Shown here: in pieces, positions 4,589-8,319 of the stretch
Position numbering within the stretch: position 1 is the first letter of the stretch
Layout of the letters: each line of letters opens with the position of its first letter
DNA from: Prolixibacteraceae bacterium
Lineage (GTDB): Bacteria > Bacteroidota > Bacteroidia > Bacteroidales > Prolixibacteraceae
Assembly (NCBI GenBank): GCA_016788685.1
Contig: JAEUSS010000639.1
Location: 1-11,747 of the forward strand
DNA length: 11,747 nt
Direction: 5' to 3'
Made by a program: the position numbers and the translations under genes
The notes under the pieces: generated by a model
What the model was told of the DNA's origin: nothing
Database searches by the model: none
What the model saw: the letters and a program-made list of their open reading frames with translations, nothing else

Positions 4589-7144
4589 ATGACAGTTGAT
4601 CTGAAATCAGAAAAATACCGCGGGCTTACCAACGAACAGGTGCTGGAAAAGCAACGCCGCGAAGGTCTGAACGAATTGCCTTCGTCGAAACCTAAAAACT
4701 TATTTGCTATTGCCTGGGGCGTGGTCAGAGAGCCCATGTTCCTGCTGCTGGTTGCCTGCGGAACCTTGTACCTGATTCTGGGCGATGTGCAGGAAGGTTT
4801 GATGCTGCTGGGTTTCGTTTTTGTGATTATGGGCATCGAATTTTACCAGGAAAAGAAAACTGAAAAGGCGCTGGATGCCCTGAAAGACCTGGCTAGCCCG
4901 CGCGCGCTCGTGATTCGCGACGGGCTTGAAAAACGCATTGCCGGCCGCGAGGTGGTAACCGGCGACCTGGTAGTTTTACAGGAAGGCGACCGTGTGCCGG
5001 CAGATGCTACGGTTTTATACTCGGTGAACCTGATGGCCGATGAGTCGCTCCTGACGGGCGAATCGGTGTCGGTGCGCAAATCGGAGTGGAACGGAACGGA
5101 TCAAAATATACATCCCGGCGGCGACGATTTGCCTTTTGTTTATTCCGGATCGATGATTGTGCAGGGAAATGGCATTGTGAAAGTGACGGCCATCGGCACC
5201 AATACCGAAATCGGGAAGATCGGGAAAGCCCTCGAATCGGTGGAGGAGGAGCCAACCAAGCTGAAAACCGAAATGGGCATTTTGGTCAAACGGCTGGCTA
5301 TTATTGGTATTTCGCTCTGCGTGCTGGTCATTGTGGTCTTCACGCTTACCCGCGGCGATTTGCTGAAAGGTTTCTTGGCCGGAATTACCCTGGCCATGGC
5401 CATGTTACCCGAAGAATTTCCGGTGGTGCTGACAGTGTTTATGGCTTTGGGCGCCTGGCGGATGTCGAAAAAAAATGTGCTGACCCGCAAACCTTCGGCC
5501 GTTGAAACGTTAGGCTCGGCAACGGTTTTATGTACCGACAAAACCGGCACGCTCACTCAGAATAAAATGACTGTTACCCGCCTGTACAACGGAAACAGCT
5601 TTCATATCGTCAGCAAAACGAATCACTTTCCGGAGGAATTTCACGAGATTATTGAATACGGGATTTTGTCGAGCCAAACCAACCCCTTCGACCCGATGGA
5701 AAAAGCCATTACGAACATGGGCGAACTTTATCTTCAGGATACCGAACACATCCATACCGACTGGCAGATGGTGAAAGAGTATCCGCTCTCGAAGGATTTG
5801 CTGGCCATGTCGAGGGTTTTTTCCAACCACGAGAAACACCGGAAAACCATTGCAGCCAAAGGGGCGCCGGAAGCTATCTTTGAACTGTGCCACCTTCCGG
5901 AGGCCGAAAAAAACAACTACGCGCAGGCGGTTTCCGAAATGGCTTCGGCCGGGCTGCGGGTGCTGGGCGTGGCCAAAGCGCTGATTGCTGACAAAGATCT
6001 TCCGGAGATTCAGCACGACTTCGAATTTAAATTTATTGGCCTGATCGCTTTGTCGGATCCGATTCGCGAATCGGTGCCCGATGCCGTGCGCGAATGTTAT
6101 CAGGCCGGAATACGCGTCATCATGATTACCGGCGACTACCCGGTTACCGCCATGAACATTGCCCGCGAAATCGGTTTGAAGAACCACGGGGTTTCCATCA
6201 GTGGCCCCGAACTTCAGGCCATGAGCGAGGAGGAGCTGAGCGAACGGATTAAAGATGTGAACGTGTTTGCACGTGTGGTTCCGGAGCAGAAACTCAAGAT
6301 TGTGAATGCCCTGAAACGAAACCGCGAAATTGTGGCCATGACGGGCGACGGCGTGAACGACGCTCCGGCGCTGAAGGCCGCCAACATTGGCATTGCCATG
6401 GGCGAAAAGGGAACCGACGTGGCCCGCGAAGCTTCGTCGCTGGTGCTGATGGACGATAATTTTGCCTCGATTGTGGGTGCCGTAAAAATGGGACGCCGTA
6501 TTTTCGATAACCTCCAGAAAGCCTTGGGTTACATTTTTGCCATTCACGTGCCCATCGCCGGCTTGTCGCTCATCCCCGTGTTTTTTGCCGACCTGCCGCT
6601 GCTGCTCTGGCCGGTGCACATTGTTTTTCTGGAACTGATTATCGACCCGGCCTGTTCCATCATTTTTGAAGCCGAAGAGGAAGAGAAGAACGTGATGAGC
6701 CGGCCGCCCAAAGCGATTGACGAACCATTTTTTGGCGCCGGAAAAATCTGGCTGAGCTGCTCGCAGGGAATCGGGATACTGGTTATTGTTTTCGCGGTTT
6801 ATTTGTTGGGCCTGAAGCTGGGTTACTCCGAGCAGGAAGACCGCGCGCTGGCCTTTACCACCCTGATTGCCGCCAACATTGCCGTCATTTTATCGAACCG
6901 CTCGTGGACCCGGAACATCTTCCAGATTGTTGCAACGCCCAACAAGGCTGTCAAATGGGTGGTGGGGGGCGCCGCTTTTTTCCTGATCCTGATCCTGAAT
7001 GTTCCTTTCCTGTTAACCCTGTTCCAGTTCGAAAAAATCAGCCTGACCGAAGCGCTGGTTTGCATTGTTGCCGGATTTTCGAGCATCATCTGGTTCGAAT
7101 TGTACAAAGCATTCCGGGGCGCGAAAAGGCTGAAAACGATTTAA
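4589..7144 (+). CDS. P-type cation-translocating ATPase (P2-like, atypical ion site)
   Basis: The protein is 851 residues with all P-type landmarks: an N-terminal cation-ATPase domain (about 5-65), an actuator TGES (156-159), PEEFP in helix M4 (274-278), the phosphorylated Asp317 in DKTGTLTQ, KGAPE in the nucleotide-binding domain, and TGDGVNDAPAL (585-595). Ten membrane segments are expected and the C-terminus has M7-M10 character. It is nearest to Ca2+ pumps such as SERCA and bacterial PacL. The ion-binding residues differ: PEEFP replaces PEGLP, HVPI (653-656) stands where SERCA M5 has NVGE, and ELIIDP (682-687) stands where M6 has NLVTDG. The substrate is therefore uncertain; a divalent metal is plausible. 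It follows marR by 42 bp with an operator between them and ends before a strong terminator, so marR and the pump may be co-transcribed. Confidence 0.93.
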   Translation: MTVDLKSEKYRGLTNEQVLEKQRREGLNELPSSKPKNLFAIAWGVVREPMFLLLVACGTLYLILGDVQEGLMLLGFVFVIMGIEFYQEKKTEKALDALKDLASPRALVIRDGLEKRIAGREVVTGDLVVLQEGDRVPADATVLYSVNLMADESLLTGESVSVRKSEWNGTDQNIHPGGDDLPFVYSGSMIVQGNGIVKVTAIGTNTEIGKIGKALESVEEEPTKLKTEMGILVKRLAIIGISLCVLVIVVFTLTRGDLLKGFLAGITLAMAMLPEEFPVVLTVFMALGAWRMSKKNVLTRKPSAVETLGSATVLCTDKTGTLTQNKMTVTRLYNGNSFHIVSKTNHFPEEFHEIIEYGILSSQTNPFDPMEKAITNMGELYLQDTEHIHTDWQMVKEYPLSKDLLAMSRVFSNHEKHRKTIAAKGAPEAIFELCHLPEAEKNNYAQAVSEMASAGLRVLGVAKALIADKDLPEIQHDFEFKFIGLIALSDPIRESVPDAVRECYQAGIRVIMITGDYPVTAMNIAREIGLKNHGVSISGPELQAMSEEELSERIKDVNVFARVVPEQKLKIVNALKRNREIVAMTGDGVNDAPALKAANIGIAMGEKGTDVAREASSLVLMDDNFASIVGAVKMGRRIFDNLQKALGYIFAIHVPIAGLSLIPVFFADLPLLLWPVHIVFLELIIDPACSIIFEAEEEEKNVMSRPPKAIDEPFFGAGKIWLSCSQGIGILVIVFAVYLLGLKLGYSEQEDRALAFTTLIAANIAVILSNRSWTRNIFQIVATPNKAVKWVVGGAAFFLILILNVPFLLTLFQFEKISLTEALVCIVAGFSSIIWFELYKAFRGAKRLKTI

Positions 7145-7200
7145 AATTTGCCTGACCATTGTTTTTAATTCCTTGCTGAACGGTCTGTCTGGCTTGGTTT

Positions 7201-7240
7201 ATTGACCGGGTGACTCGAAGTCACCCGGTCAATATTTTTT
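7201..7240 (+). terminator. Rho-independent terminator of the ATPase gene
   Basis: A perfect 15-bp stem, ATTGACCGGGTGACT (7201-7215) with its complement at 7219-7233, closes on a 3-base loop CGA. It is followed by an A and TTTTTT (7235-7240). The position, 57 bp after the ATPase stop codon, fits the end of the marR-ATPase transcript. Confidence 0.93.
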
Positions 7241-7280: not shown

Positions 7281-7344
7281 CTGAAACACCTGCTGCTGCC
7301 CGCCCTGTTATGTAAGTGGAATCATTTTGGGCCGTATTTTATCC

Positions 7345-7382
7345 TTGACTCACCCCAAGCTCGCGGACGTGGGGTGAGTCAA
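7345..7382. other. 13-bp perfect inverted repeat with a 12-base loop
   Basis: TTGACTCACCCCA (7345-7357) and TGGGGTGAGTCAA (7370-7382) are perfect complements around a GC-rich loop. Neither strand has a T tract after the stem, so simple termination is unlikely. It could be an operator, a processing hairpin or a structured RNA element. The 290 bp from 7145 to 7435 hold this, the ATPase terminator and two smaller hairpins but no coding region. Confidence 0.8.
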
Positions 7383-7416
7383 TAAAATGATGAATTAAAT
7401 GCGACATTTAGTTCAT

Positions 7417-7436
7417 CTTCCAGTTTAGTCTGGAAG
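7417..7436. other. Short hairpin just before the repeat array
   Basis: CTTCCAG (7417-7423) pairs perfectly with CTGGAAG (7430-7436) around TTTAGT. Its last base is the first base of repeat unit 1. It is 20 bp long, the same as the repeat period, so it may be a diverged unit zero. Confidence 0.5.
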
Positions 7437-7821
7437 CCGTCCTGTTCCAAAAAGTGGCCTCCATGTAGGAAATAAGCCCGTCATGTTGGTCAGGAAGCCC
7501 GTCGTGTTGAAAATGAAGCCTCCATGTTAGAGAAAATGGCCGTCATGTAGGCCGGGAAGCCGTCATGTTAAAGATTTTGCTTCCCTGTCATCCCGCAGAG
7601 CTTCCCTGTCAAGTGAATTGCCTCCCTGTCACCAGCGAAGCCTTCCTGTCAAGGAAATTGCTTCCCTGTCACTCATAAAGCATCCCTGTTATGAAAAATT
7701 GTCTCCCTGTCACTCGCAGAGCTTCCCTGTCAAAGAAATTGTCTCCCTGTCACTCGTAAAGCTTCCCTGTCATATAAATTGTCTTCCTGTCACCCCGGAG
7801 AGCTTTCCTGCCGGGCAGGGA
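7436..7821. repeat. Tandem array of 19 units, period 19-21 bp, in two subfamilies
   Basis: Units start at 7436, 7457, 7476, 7497, 7518, 7539, 7559, 7579, 7600, 7620, 7640, 7660, 7680, 7701, 7721, 7741, 7761, 7781 and 7802. Units 1-7 share a core near GCCGTCATGTT or GCCTCCATGTT. Units 8-18 share GCTTCCCTGTCA or GTCTCCCTGTCA. Unit 5 bridges the types, matching unit 10 at 10 of 12 core bases. In units 9-18 the 8-9-base tails alternate: odd units end in AATT, while even units carry C-rich tails such as CTCGCAGA or CTCGTAAA, giving a two-unit period of about 40 bp. The period is not a multiple of three and the reading frame drifts, so this is not a protein repeat. There is no spacer and repeat pattern of CRISPR type, and no identical long units. 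The function is unknown. Confidence 0.93.
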
Positions 7822-7830
7822 GCCTTTTTT
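7802..7830 (+). terminator. Terminator-like hairpin formed by the last repeat unit
   Basis: In unit 19 the usual CTGTCA becomes CTGCCGGGCAGG, creating a stem (TTTCCTGC with GCAGGGAG, including two G-T pairs) followed by CC and TTTTTT (7825-7830). On the plus strand this is the layout of an intrinsic terminator. No plus-strand gene precedes it after the ATPase terminator, so if it works it ends a transcript that begins inside the repeat region. Confidence 0.5.
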
Positions 7831-7920
7831 CCGGAGAGGACGCTTTTTTCTCTGGCATGAGTCGCCTTAACCGGAAAGGGGGAGCGGGTTTTTGTCCGGA
7901 CTGTTCATCCGGTTCGTTTT
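7831..7920. other. Intergenic remainder between repeat array and ychJ-like gene
   Basis: I see no gene here. There are two weak inverted repeats: CCGGAGA with TCTCTGG (7831-7856), and CCGGA with TCCGG (7896-7912) followed by TTCGTTTTT on the plus strand. No convincing minus-strand terminator for the ychJ-like gene is visible. Confidence 0.4.
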
Positions 7921-8319
7921 TCAGGAAAAATGTACGCCCGAAACGTATACCCAATGGCCGTTTTCGCGCCGGAACAACGATTTTTCGTGAATCTGCTGCA
8001 GTTTCCCGTCTTCCAGGTAGCTGGCCTTAAACTCCACGTAGCCCGTCTGGTCGCCGGCTTGTCCGGCCTGTGTCCCGACGATGGTCAGGCCAATCCAGCT
8101 GACCGACCTGGCCCATTGTTCCATGTTTTTCTTTTCCCTGACGGGCCTCGTTTTTAACGAATGGCTGCGCATGAGGTAATCGCCATCGGCCCGGGTGAAG
8201 GCTACGTAGCGCGAGCGCATCAGCTGCAGCGCGGTAAGGGCTTCCTGATTACCTGAAAGGATGGGGTCGCAGCAGGCATCAGCCGGTTGTTGCGAACCGC
8301 AGGGGCATGGGTTGGACAT
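7921..8319 (-). CDS. YchJ-family protein with N-terminal SEC-C motif
   Basis: I choose the ATG at 8319 (132 residues). A longer frame reaches back to 8442 but its extra 41 residues overlap the upstream DUF2293 gene and do not look like the family. The protein opens MSNPCPCGSQQPADACC: a SEC-C-type zinc motif with C5, C7, C16 and C17. The YchJ core follows (LMRSRYVAF, then DYLMRSH, WIGLTIV, GYVEFKASY, EKSLFRRENGHWVYVSG), an NTF2-like fold. Escherichia coli YchJ has a second SEC-C motif at its C-terminus; this shorter form lacks it, as many Bacteroidota versions do. The function is unknown; SEC-C zinc motifs occur in SecA, where they contact SecB and ribosomes. It lies 10 bp after the DUF2293 gene, probably in one transcript. 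Confidence 0.88.
   Translation of the reverse strand: MSNPCPCGSQQPADACCDPILSGNQEALTALQLMRSRYVAFTRADGDYLMRSHSLKTRPVREKKNMEQWARSVSWIGLTIVGTQAGQAGDQTGYVEFKASYLEDGKLQQIHEKSLFRRENGHWVYVSGVHFS

Follow-up and report, generated by a model that had tools for sequence, protein, structure and literature searches.

The window analysed here, a stretch of 11,747 nucleotides from a Prolixibacteraceae bacterium (contig JAEUSS010000639.1), contains an array of 19 short direct repeats that belongs to a dispersed family, related arrays being located between genes at ten loci of the source genome (G000, 3.76 Mb, 654 contigs). Going by the sequence, we propose, with about even confidence, that the array is a chromosomal, dispersed iteron-like element and that its rows of cores are putative sites for a sequence-specific protein. 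Two genes, both reading inward, converge on the window array, and the features of the locus are as follows.

4589..7144, plus strand: left neighbour, P-type cation ATPase gene (Pfam E1-E2_ATPase and Cation_ATPase_C)
7284..7309, plus strand: leader module, left border of the element (leader profile score 25.5)
7310..7435, no strand: stretch from the leader to unit 1, without a clear unit, containing an inverted repeat (7345-7382) with 12-bp arms
7436-7813, plus strand: array of 19 direct-repeat units, core starts 7441 to 7807
7436..7578, plus strand: units 1-7, mainly with CATGTT/CATGTA cores
7579..7806, plus strand: units 8-18 and the first bases of unit 19, with CCTGTCA cores and pairwise-alternating linkers
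7807..7819, no strand: closing head-to-head dyad CCTGCC-G-GGCAGG
7921..8319, minus strand: right neighbour, YchJ-like gene (Pfam YchJ_M-like, 2.5e-31)

A first-pass annotation of this DNA had described 19 head-to-tail units of 19-21 bp with a mean of 20.3 bp. Its coordinates are accurate within one base, and the 19 cores as well as the mean were found again, but all 18 core-to-core steps are 20 or 21 bp long, leaving no place for 19-bp steps. The two unit subtypes that it distinguished are also present, with unit 1 (CCTGTT) and unit 4 (CGTGTT) as exceptions in the first block and unit 13 (CCTGTTA) in the second. The core of unit 19, CCTGCC, makes the dyad with the bases downstream of it, and this dyad overlaps a terminator-like stem (7804-7822) that is followed by a T-run. 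With Tandem Repeats Finder, periods close to 20 bp and of 40, 61 and 81 bp are obtained, of which the longer ones score higher (225 for 40 bp and 276 for 81 bp vs 58 to 76 for the 20-21-bp rows), in agreement with the pairwise higher-order pattern claimed before. The autocorrelation of the array amounts to 0.48 at lag 40, 0.49 at lag 41 and 0.52 at lag 81, and did not exceed 0.368 across lags 15-129 in 500 first-order Markov shuffles. A chain of three units was found in none of 100 Markov windows, using a unit profile that was itself built from the window units and related units. The leader is located 126 bp ahead of the first clear unit, and the stretch between them is probably decayed or inserted sequence. 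Strong hairpins at 7200-7234 and 7345-7382 have related arms (GGGTGACTC / GACTCACCCC); the first resembles, judged by its T-run, the terminator of the ATPase gene, and the second sits between the leader and unit 1.

The first-pass annotation had treated the array as a single locus and thereby missed the dispersed family, the leader, the end module and the frequent inverted second arm. A search of the genome and its relatives, which it had recommended, identified related arrays at at least ten loci of the source genome and more in relatives; absence from all close relatives, which it had named as a sign of an inert repeat, does not apply to the array family as a whole. Further arrays on contigs C218, C38, C410 and C216 were found by a DNA search of G000. 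A three-unit sequence profile (R1) was built from these four loci and the window, with window units 2 and 6 beginning one base early in its rows, and together with a unit-chain scan it added C400, C567, C596, C590 and C359, giving ten loci in all. Within the genus, 10/23 genomes match the profile at E 1e-3. Within the family, 26/140 genomes from 7/23 genera match at E 1e-4, which is a lower bound, as stricter filters lose weak matches. Only two of 295 genomes of the order match, namely the source genome and G220, which belongs to another family. The G220 locus (L123:1181-1560) has two inverted arms with 21-bp steps, and at their centre, CATGT-A-ACAGG, the cores are nearer to each other by one pair than in the usual dyad; as one reading frame stays open across one arm, a coding repeat is possible at this locus. 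Units are present at 3/16 ychJ loci of the genus, the source locus included, and one of the three, L178, consists mostly of another repeat. At L178:901-1146 (G007), another tandem array with a unit of ~20 bp around TGTCATCNTGCAAATA lies downstream of ychJ. The window array has no match at E 0.01 among plasmid and phage records. A first scan of viral contigs matched at least 120 stretches; the 120 listed were all searched for unit chains, and among them four have a chain of at least four units; L201, L207 and L296 show strict 21-bp steps and are probably coding repeats, L302 is a simple repeat, and the dyad-plus-unit pattern has no match in viral contigs. Five contig-scan matches obtained with too narrow a pattern were taken as chance. 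No printed description of such arrays was found in the literature searched, which included few subscription papers.

Many elements of the window's genus start with a leader near AAAAGCCCGCCACCACTCGCCCTGTT. A profile of 14 leaders, the window leader not being one of them, has 31 matches over the 465 kb of loci retrieved; one mononucleotide shuffle of these 465 kb had no match scoring at least 13. Distinct array edges account for 24 of the 31 matches, ten of which are absent from the 14 sequences of the profile. The remaining seven were set aside: three in L103/L104, which had been fetched with a pattern containing part of the leader, three that fall on places already counted (L107, L172 and L181) and one weak match in L015, away from any array edge. 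An end module near GTCCTTTCGCGGGTTTCAGAGG, followed by T-rich sequence, is found at L060, L062, L066, L067, L070, L074 and L075, and a near copy in L083, which comes from another genus. A plan in which a variable number of units stands between two different end modules is therefore seen at many loci; the leader is on one side only in every element found, and many arrays are without leader, end module or both. Aligned copies from unrelated loci, L083 included, have part of their linker order in common when compared by eye, and some copies therefore derive from other copies and were not assembled anew on each occasion.

In place of the end module, arrays can be closed by a dyad of the general form CCTGTT-N-AACAGG. 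We scanned 47 loci, orthologues included, for the last core followed by one base and its reverse complement, in this register only and allowing one mismatch, and found 22 dyads, 18 exact and 4 with one mismatch. The dyads match the local core dialect, as in CATGTT-T-AACATG, CCTGTT-A-AACAGG and CCTGCC-G-GGCAGG. In the family, the dyad pattern occurs at 19 places in 13/140 genomes vs 5 places for the reversed control, and in 14 such loci that were read, the dyad is flanked by units on one or both sides at 13 and by none at L109. Beyond the dyad, inverted units make up a second arm in several other genera and, in the window's genus, at C410, L077, L106 and L119.

A spacing of about two helical turns, suggested earlier for the window, holds for the family: over 47 loci, 219/321 steps are 20 bp and 97/321 are 21 bp (316/321 either), in a scan that allowed 18 to 23 bp. 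The unit is made up of a conserved core of ~10 bp and linkers of 8-10 bp. Of 13 close species, 8 have the same array at the ileS locus, a shortened form is present in 2 and an array with a different core in 2, and one species is without an array; the chain scan alone gave six full arrays and one partial array, and L150 was recognised by alignment. Among the 8 species, identity is 0.966 at 66 core sites vs 0.825 at 138 linker sites, while the flank on the ileS side has 0.821 (126 sites) and the opposite flank 0.476 (60 sites); the 45 sites between promoter and start are all invariant. When the core mask was shifted circularly, 0/203 shifts attained the observed value, the best of them (0.963) coming so near because unit-sized shifts must come close. 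Addition of the two shorter arrays did not change this picture. Cores are also better conserved than the rest at a second locus in 5 species (0.845 vs 0.516, in an alignment possibly anchored on the cores) and at a third locus in one pair (0.938 vs 0.850), where the unit order is identical. Drift alone would relax spacing and cores equally, and both are kept.

In the two ileS loci with another core, a short array with the core ATCACTTG and ~22-bp steps fills the intergenic place that the CCTGTT array occupies in the sister species, and the IleRS start of both species is 98% like the reference. The pair pattern of ATCACTTG was found in these two species only among 37 genomes of their genus, with 0 in the control, and one of the two has two further loci, with five units and two units. 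This second array family is thus represented by L146, L152, L188 and L190 in genomes G058 and G060, with 22-bp steps. Such a core switch is to be expected if it is the row of sites that matters and not one sequence.

Of the roles put forward in the first-pass annotation, an array of protein-binding sites fits best, in view of the conserved orthologous cores, the two-turn spacing and the location within arrays of every one of the 11 exact strong cores of G000. In our model, each unit would consist of a core of ~10 bp (GCCGTCMTGTTR and variants of it) and a free linker downstream of the core, and a putative sequence-specific protein would bind one core per two helical turns, so that its copies align on one face of the DNA. 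In the full element, two rows would run inward and meet at the dyad, in which two cores share one base pair head-to-head. The protein would contact its neighbours along one DNA face and pair head to head at the centre. Conserved cores, a fixed phase, free linkers and a shared-base dyad are what one would expect of the sites of a protein that touches its neighbours, and we infer that binding, probably cooperative, is the reason why the cores are kept. Several observations speak against this model. There are many core dialects for one protein (CATGTT, CCTGTT, CCTGTCA, CCTGCT and CCTGCC), and the arrays are patchy, both among family genomes (26/140) and at ychJ loci (3/16). Weaker unit-profile matches outside chained arrays number 19 vs 11.9 expected in 75 kb of G000 contigs, and the other 22 genus genomes have 42 exact strong cores vs 47 for the reversed control. 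The dyad scan covered one register, and the dyad of L123 is closer.

Candidate roles of a bound array are local chromosome organisation, insulation between neighbouring genes and service to a mobilising enzyme. If the cores are protein sites, ~45 non-redundant natural arrays with known core, phase and dyad would provide ready-made bait, the protein identified with them could show which of chromosome organisation, gene insulation or DNA movement is concerned, and the core switch at ileS would be a natural test of the co-evolution of protein and site. More tentatively, and in our view rather doubtfully, the arrays might represent an undescribed chromosomal site system, kept between genes by selection, in which two-turn rows of half-sites lead to a head-to-head dyad and the core is switchable in sister species. 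The protein behind such a system, or the group of paralogues, would then be one of evolving specificity that forms polymers along the DNA from both sides.

The plan resembles that of the iterons of plasmid origins, which are Rep-bound direct repeats spaced about two helical turns apart and accompanied by inverted half-sites of the same core. Plasmid iterons work in the manner proposed above, with a protein on each core, contacts between neighbours on one side of the helix and head-to-head pairing. Direct repeats at such a spacing and inverted half-sites of their core are likewise found here, whereas the present arrays are chromosomal and occupy ten loci, and the window array matches no plasmid record; membership of the iterons is not claimed. 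DNA uptake sequences consist of a short core with lineage dialects in many single genome copies. Lineage dialects of a short core are shared with the arrays, but the exact strong cores of G000 are in arrays and not scattered (11/11), and this identity was rejected. In PMC4679880, TAACTGA direct repeats are reported from Beggiatoaceae, Cyanobacteria and five Bacteroidetes, mostly lying just before start codons in the genome studied there, with a suggested translational role. They, too, are short, mostly intergenic direct repeats that are patchy across species and proposed to be binding sites, and differ in having 7-bp units where the arrays have 20-bp units.

The main rival to the binding-site reading, which we regard as a serious possibility of lesser probability, is that the arrays are non-autonomous mobile repeats of a BOX- or foldback-like kind, whose leader, units and end module are recognised by a transposase from elsewhere. 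The units would then be transposase sites and the two arms would point inward. Such an element would be in keeping with the leader, end module and part of the linker order common to unrelated loci, also in L083 of another genus, with the inward-facing arms and with the patchy distribution. BOX elements of Streptococcus pneumoniae, as presented in PMC3049150, have the same A-Bn-C plan (boxA-boxBn-boxC); compared by plan alone, they are similarly intergenic, dispersed and modular, with two end modules, variable tandem units and no enzyme of their own, but the present units are 20 bp long and helix-phased, form no stems on average and often have an inverted arm and a dyad. BOX elements and MITEs are described as stem-forming in that paper, whereas folding of 16 arrays against dinucleotide shuffles gave mean z values of +0.78 and +0.45 on the two strands, with the minus strands of the window array (z -2.45) and L070 (z -3.20) as exceptions. 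Similarly, the foldback transposon Tetris of Drosophila has inverted arms with ~220 bp tandem repeats (PMC4079207) and resembles the arrays in this arrangement, in being modular and in being apparently nonautonomous; the arrays differ in being bacterial, with 20-bp units, a one-ended leader and no target duplication seen. Terminal inverted repeats with a target-site duplication, the hallmark of MITEs and foldback elements, were not found, the leader being one-sided and the eight copies whose two ends are clear showing no duplication on inspection by eye. No clean empty site was aligned, the ileS non-carriers being too diverged, and the ileS array is in place in 10/13 close species, in two of them shortened. 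Array neighbours were annotated by Pfam at the window and two further loci, and a transposase was seen between the halves of an array in one case only, that of an insertion sequence at L059:3928-5558 (G011), which encodes a 499-aa DDE transposase (PF01609). This insertion sequence is flanked by a direct duplication of array sequence that is exact over 56 bp and unusually long, and for this reason we conclude that it entered the array.

We consider it unlikely that the arrays are inert minisatellites grown by slippage. The block-wise arrangement of unit subtypes and the higher-order pairing do resemble local duplication, and unit number differs between orthologous loci (L059 vs L068; L148 and L154 shorter), but the same modules recur at many unrelated loci, core conservation exceeds linker conservation and the spacing is kept. 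A transcribed structured or regulatory RNA, the other role named in the first-pass annotation, is very improbable: the array overlaps a terminator-like stem, the two-armed L118 folds strongly (z -4.86) and the two minus strands mentioned above fold better than shuffles, yet the 16 arrays lend it no support on average, neither the window nor six further loci matched Rfam at gathering scores, and two-armed folding is explained by the inverted cores themselves. The window contains no tRNA.

The statement that the array is not coding, CRISPR or REP-like was confirmed. The frame at 7618-7860 (80 aa) spans 40-bp repeats, which are not a multiple of three, and was therefore rejected as coding; a CRISPR array has long identical repeats and unique spacers of at least 20 bp, where cores of ~10 bp and linkers of 8-10 bp are found, and the unit is not palindromic as in REP. 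An IS21-type transposon end was rejected, as no istB-like gene is present on the ten array contigs of G000; the genome has four istB-like matches, of which the one above the cut-off is a 487-aa frame that is probably DnaA-like. A Rho-type RNA loading site was dropped, the unit apparently having no clear excess of C over G. A Pfam scan of the eight window proteins revealed no replication initiator, and one protein without a family.

Arrays lie between convergent genes at 15/43 non-redundant loci vs 11/55 control gaps, which is no significant enrichment (p = 0.11); a 62-gap control (11/62, p = 0.065) included gaps at chance loci of other bacteria, L101-L105. For this count, 16 loci that were duplicates or orthologues were dropped by hand, along with half of an array that an insertion sequence had split, two loci had no neighbour, and frames overlapping arrays were treated as spurious, 4/30 array rows being overlapped by a frame of 90-176 aa. 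At L088, L089, L111 and L120, the arrays begin a few bases from the stop codon of an apparent gene family of 245-278 aa, the L089 member of which has no Pfam match, and at L085 the array lies ~40 bp from the stop codon of the same apparent family. Finally, other repeats were observed with the arrays: at L108, L095 and L067, arms with AACTCG-type cores replace AACAGG within or beside elements, and L115 has arms with CCAGTT cores.
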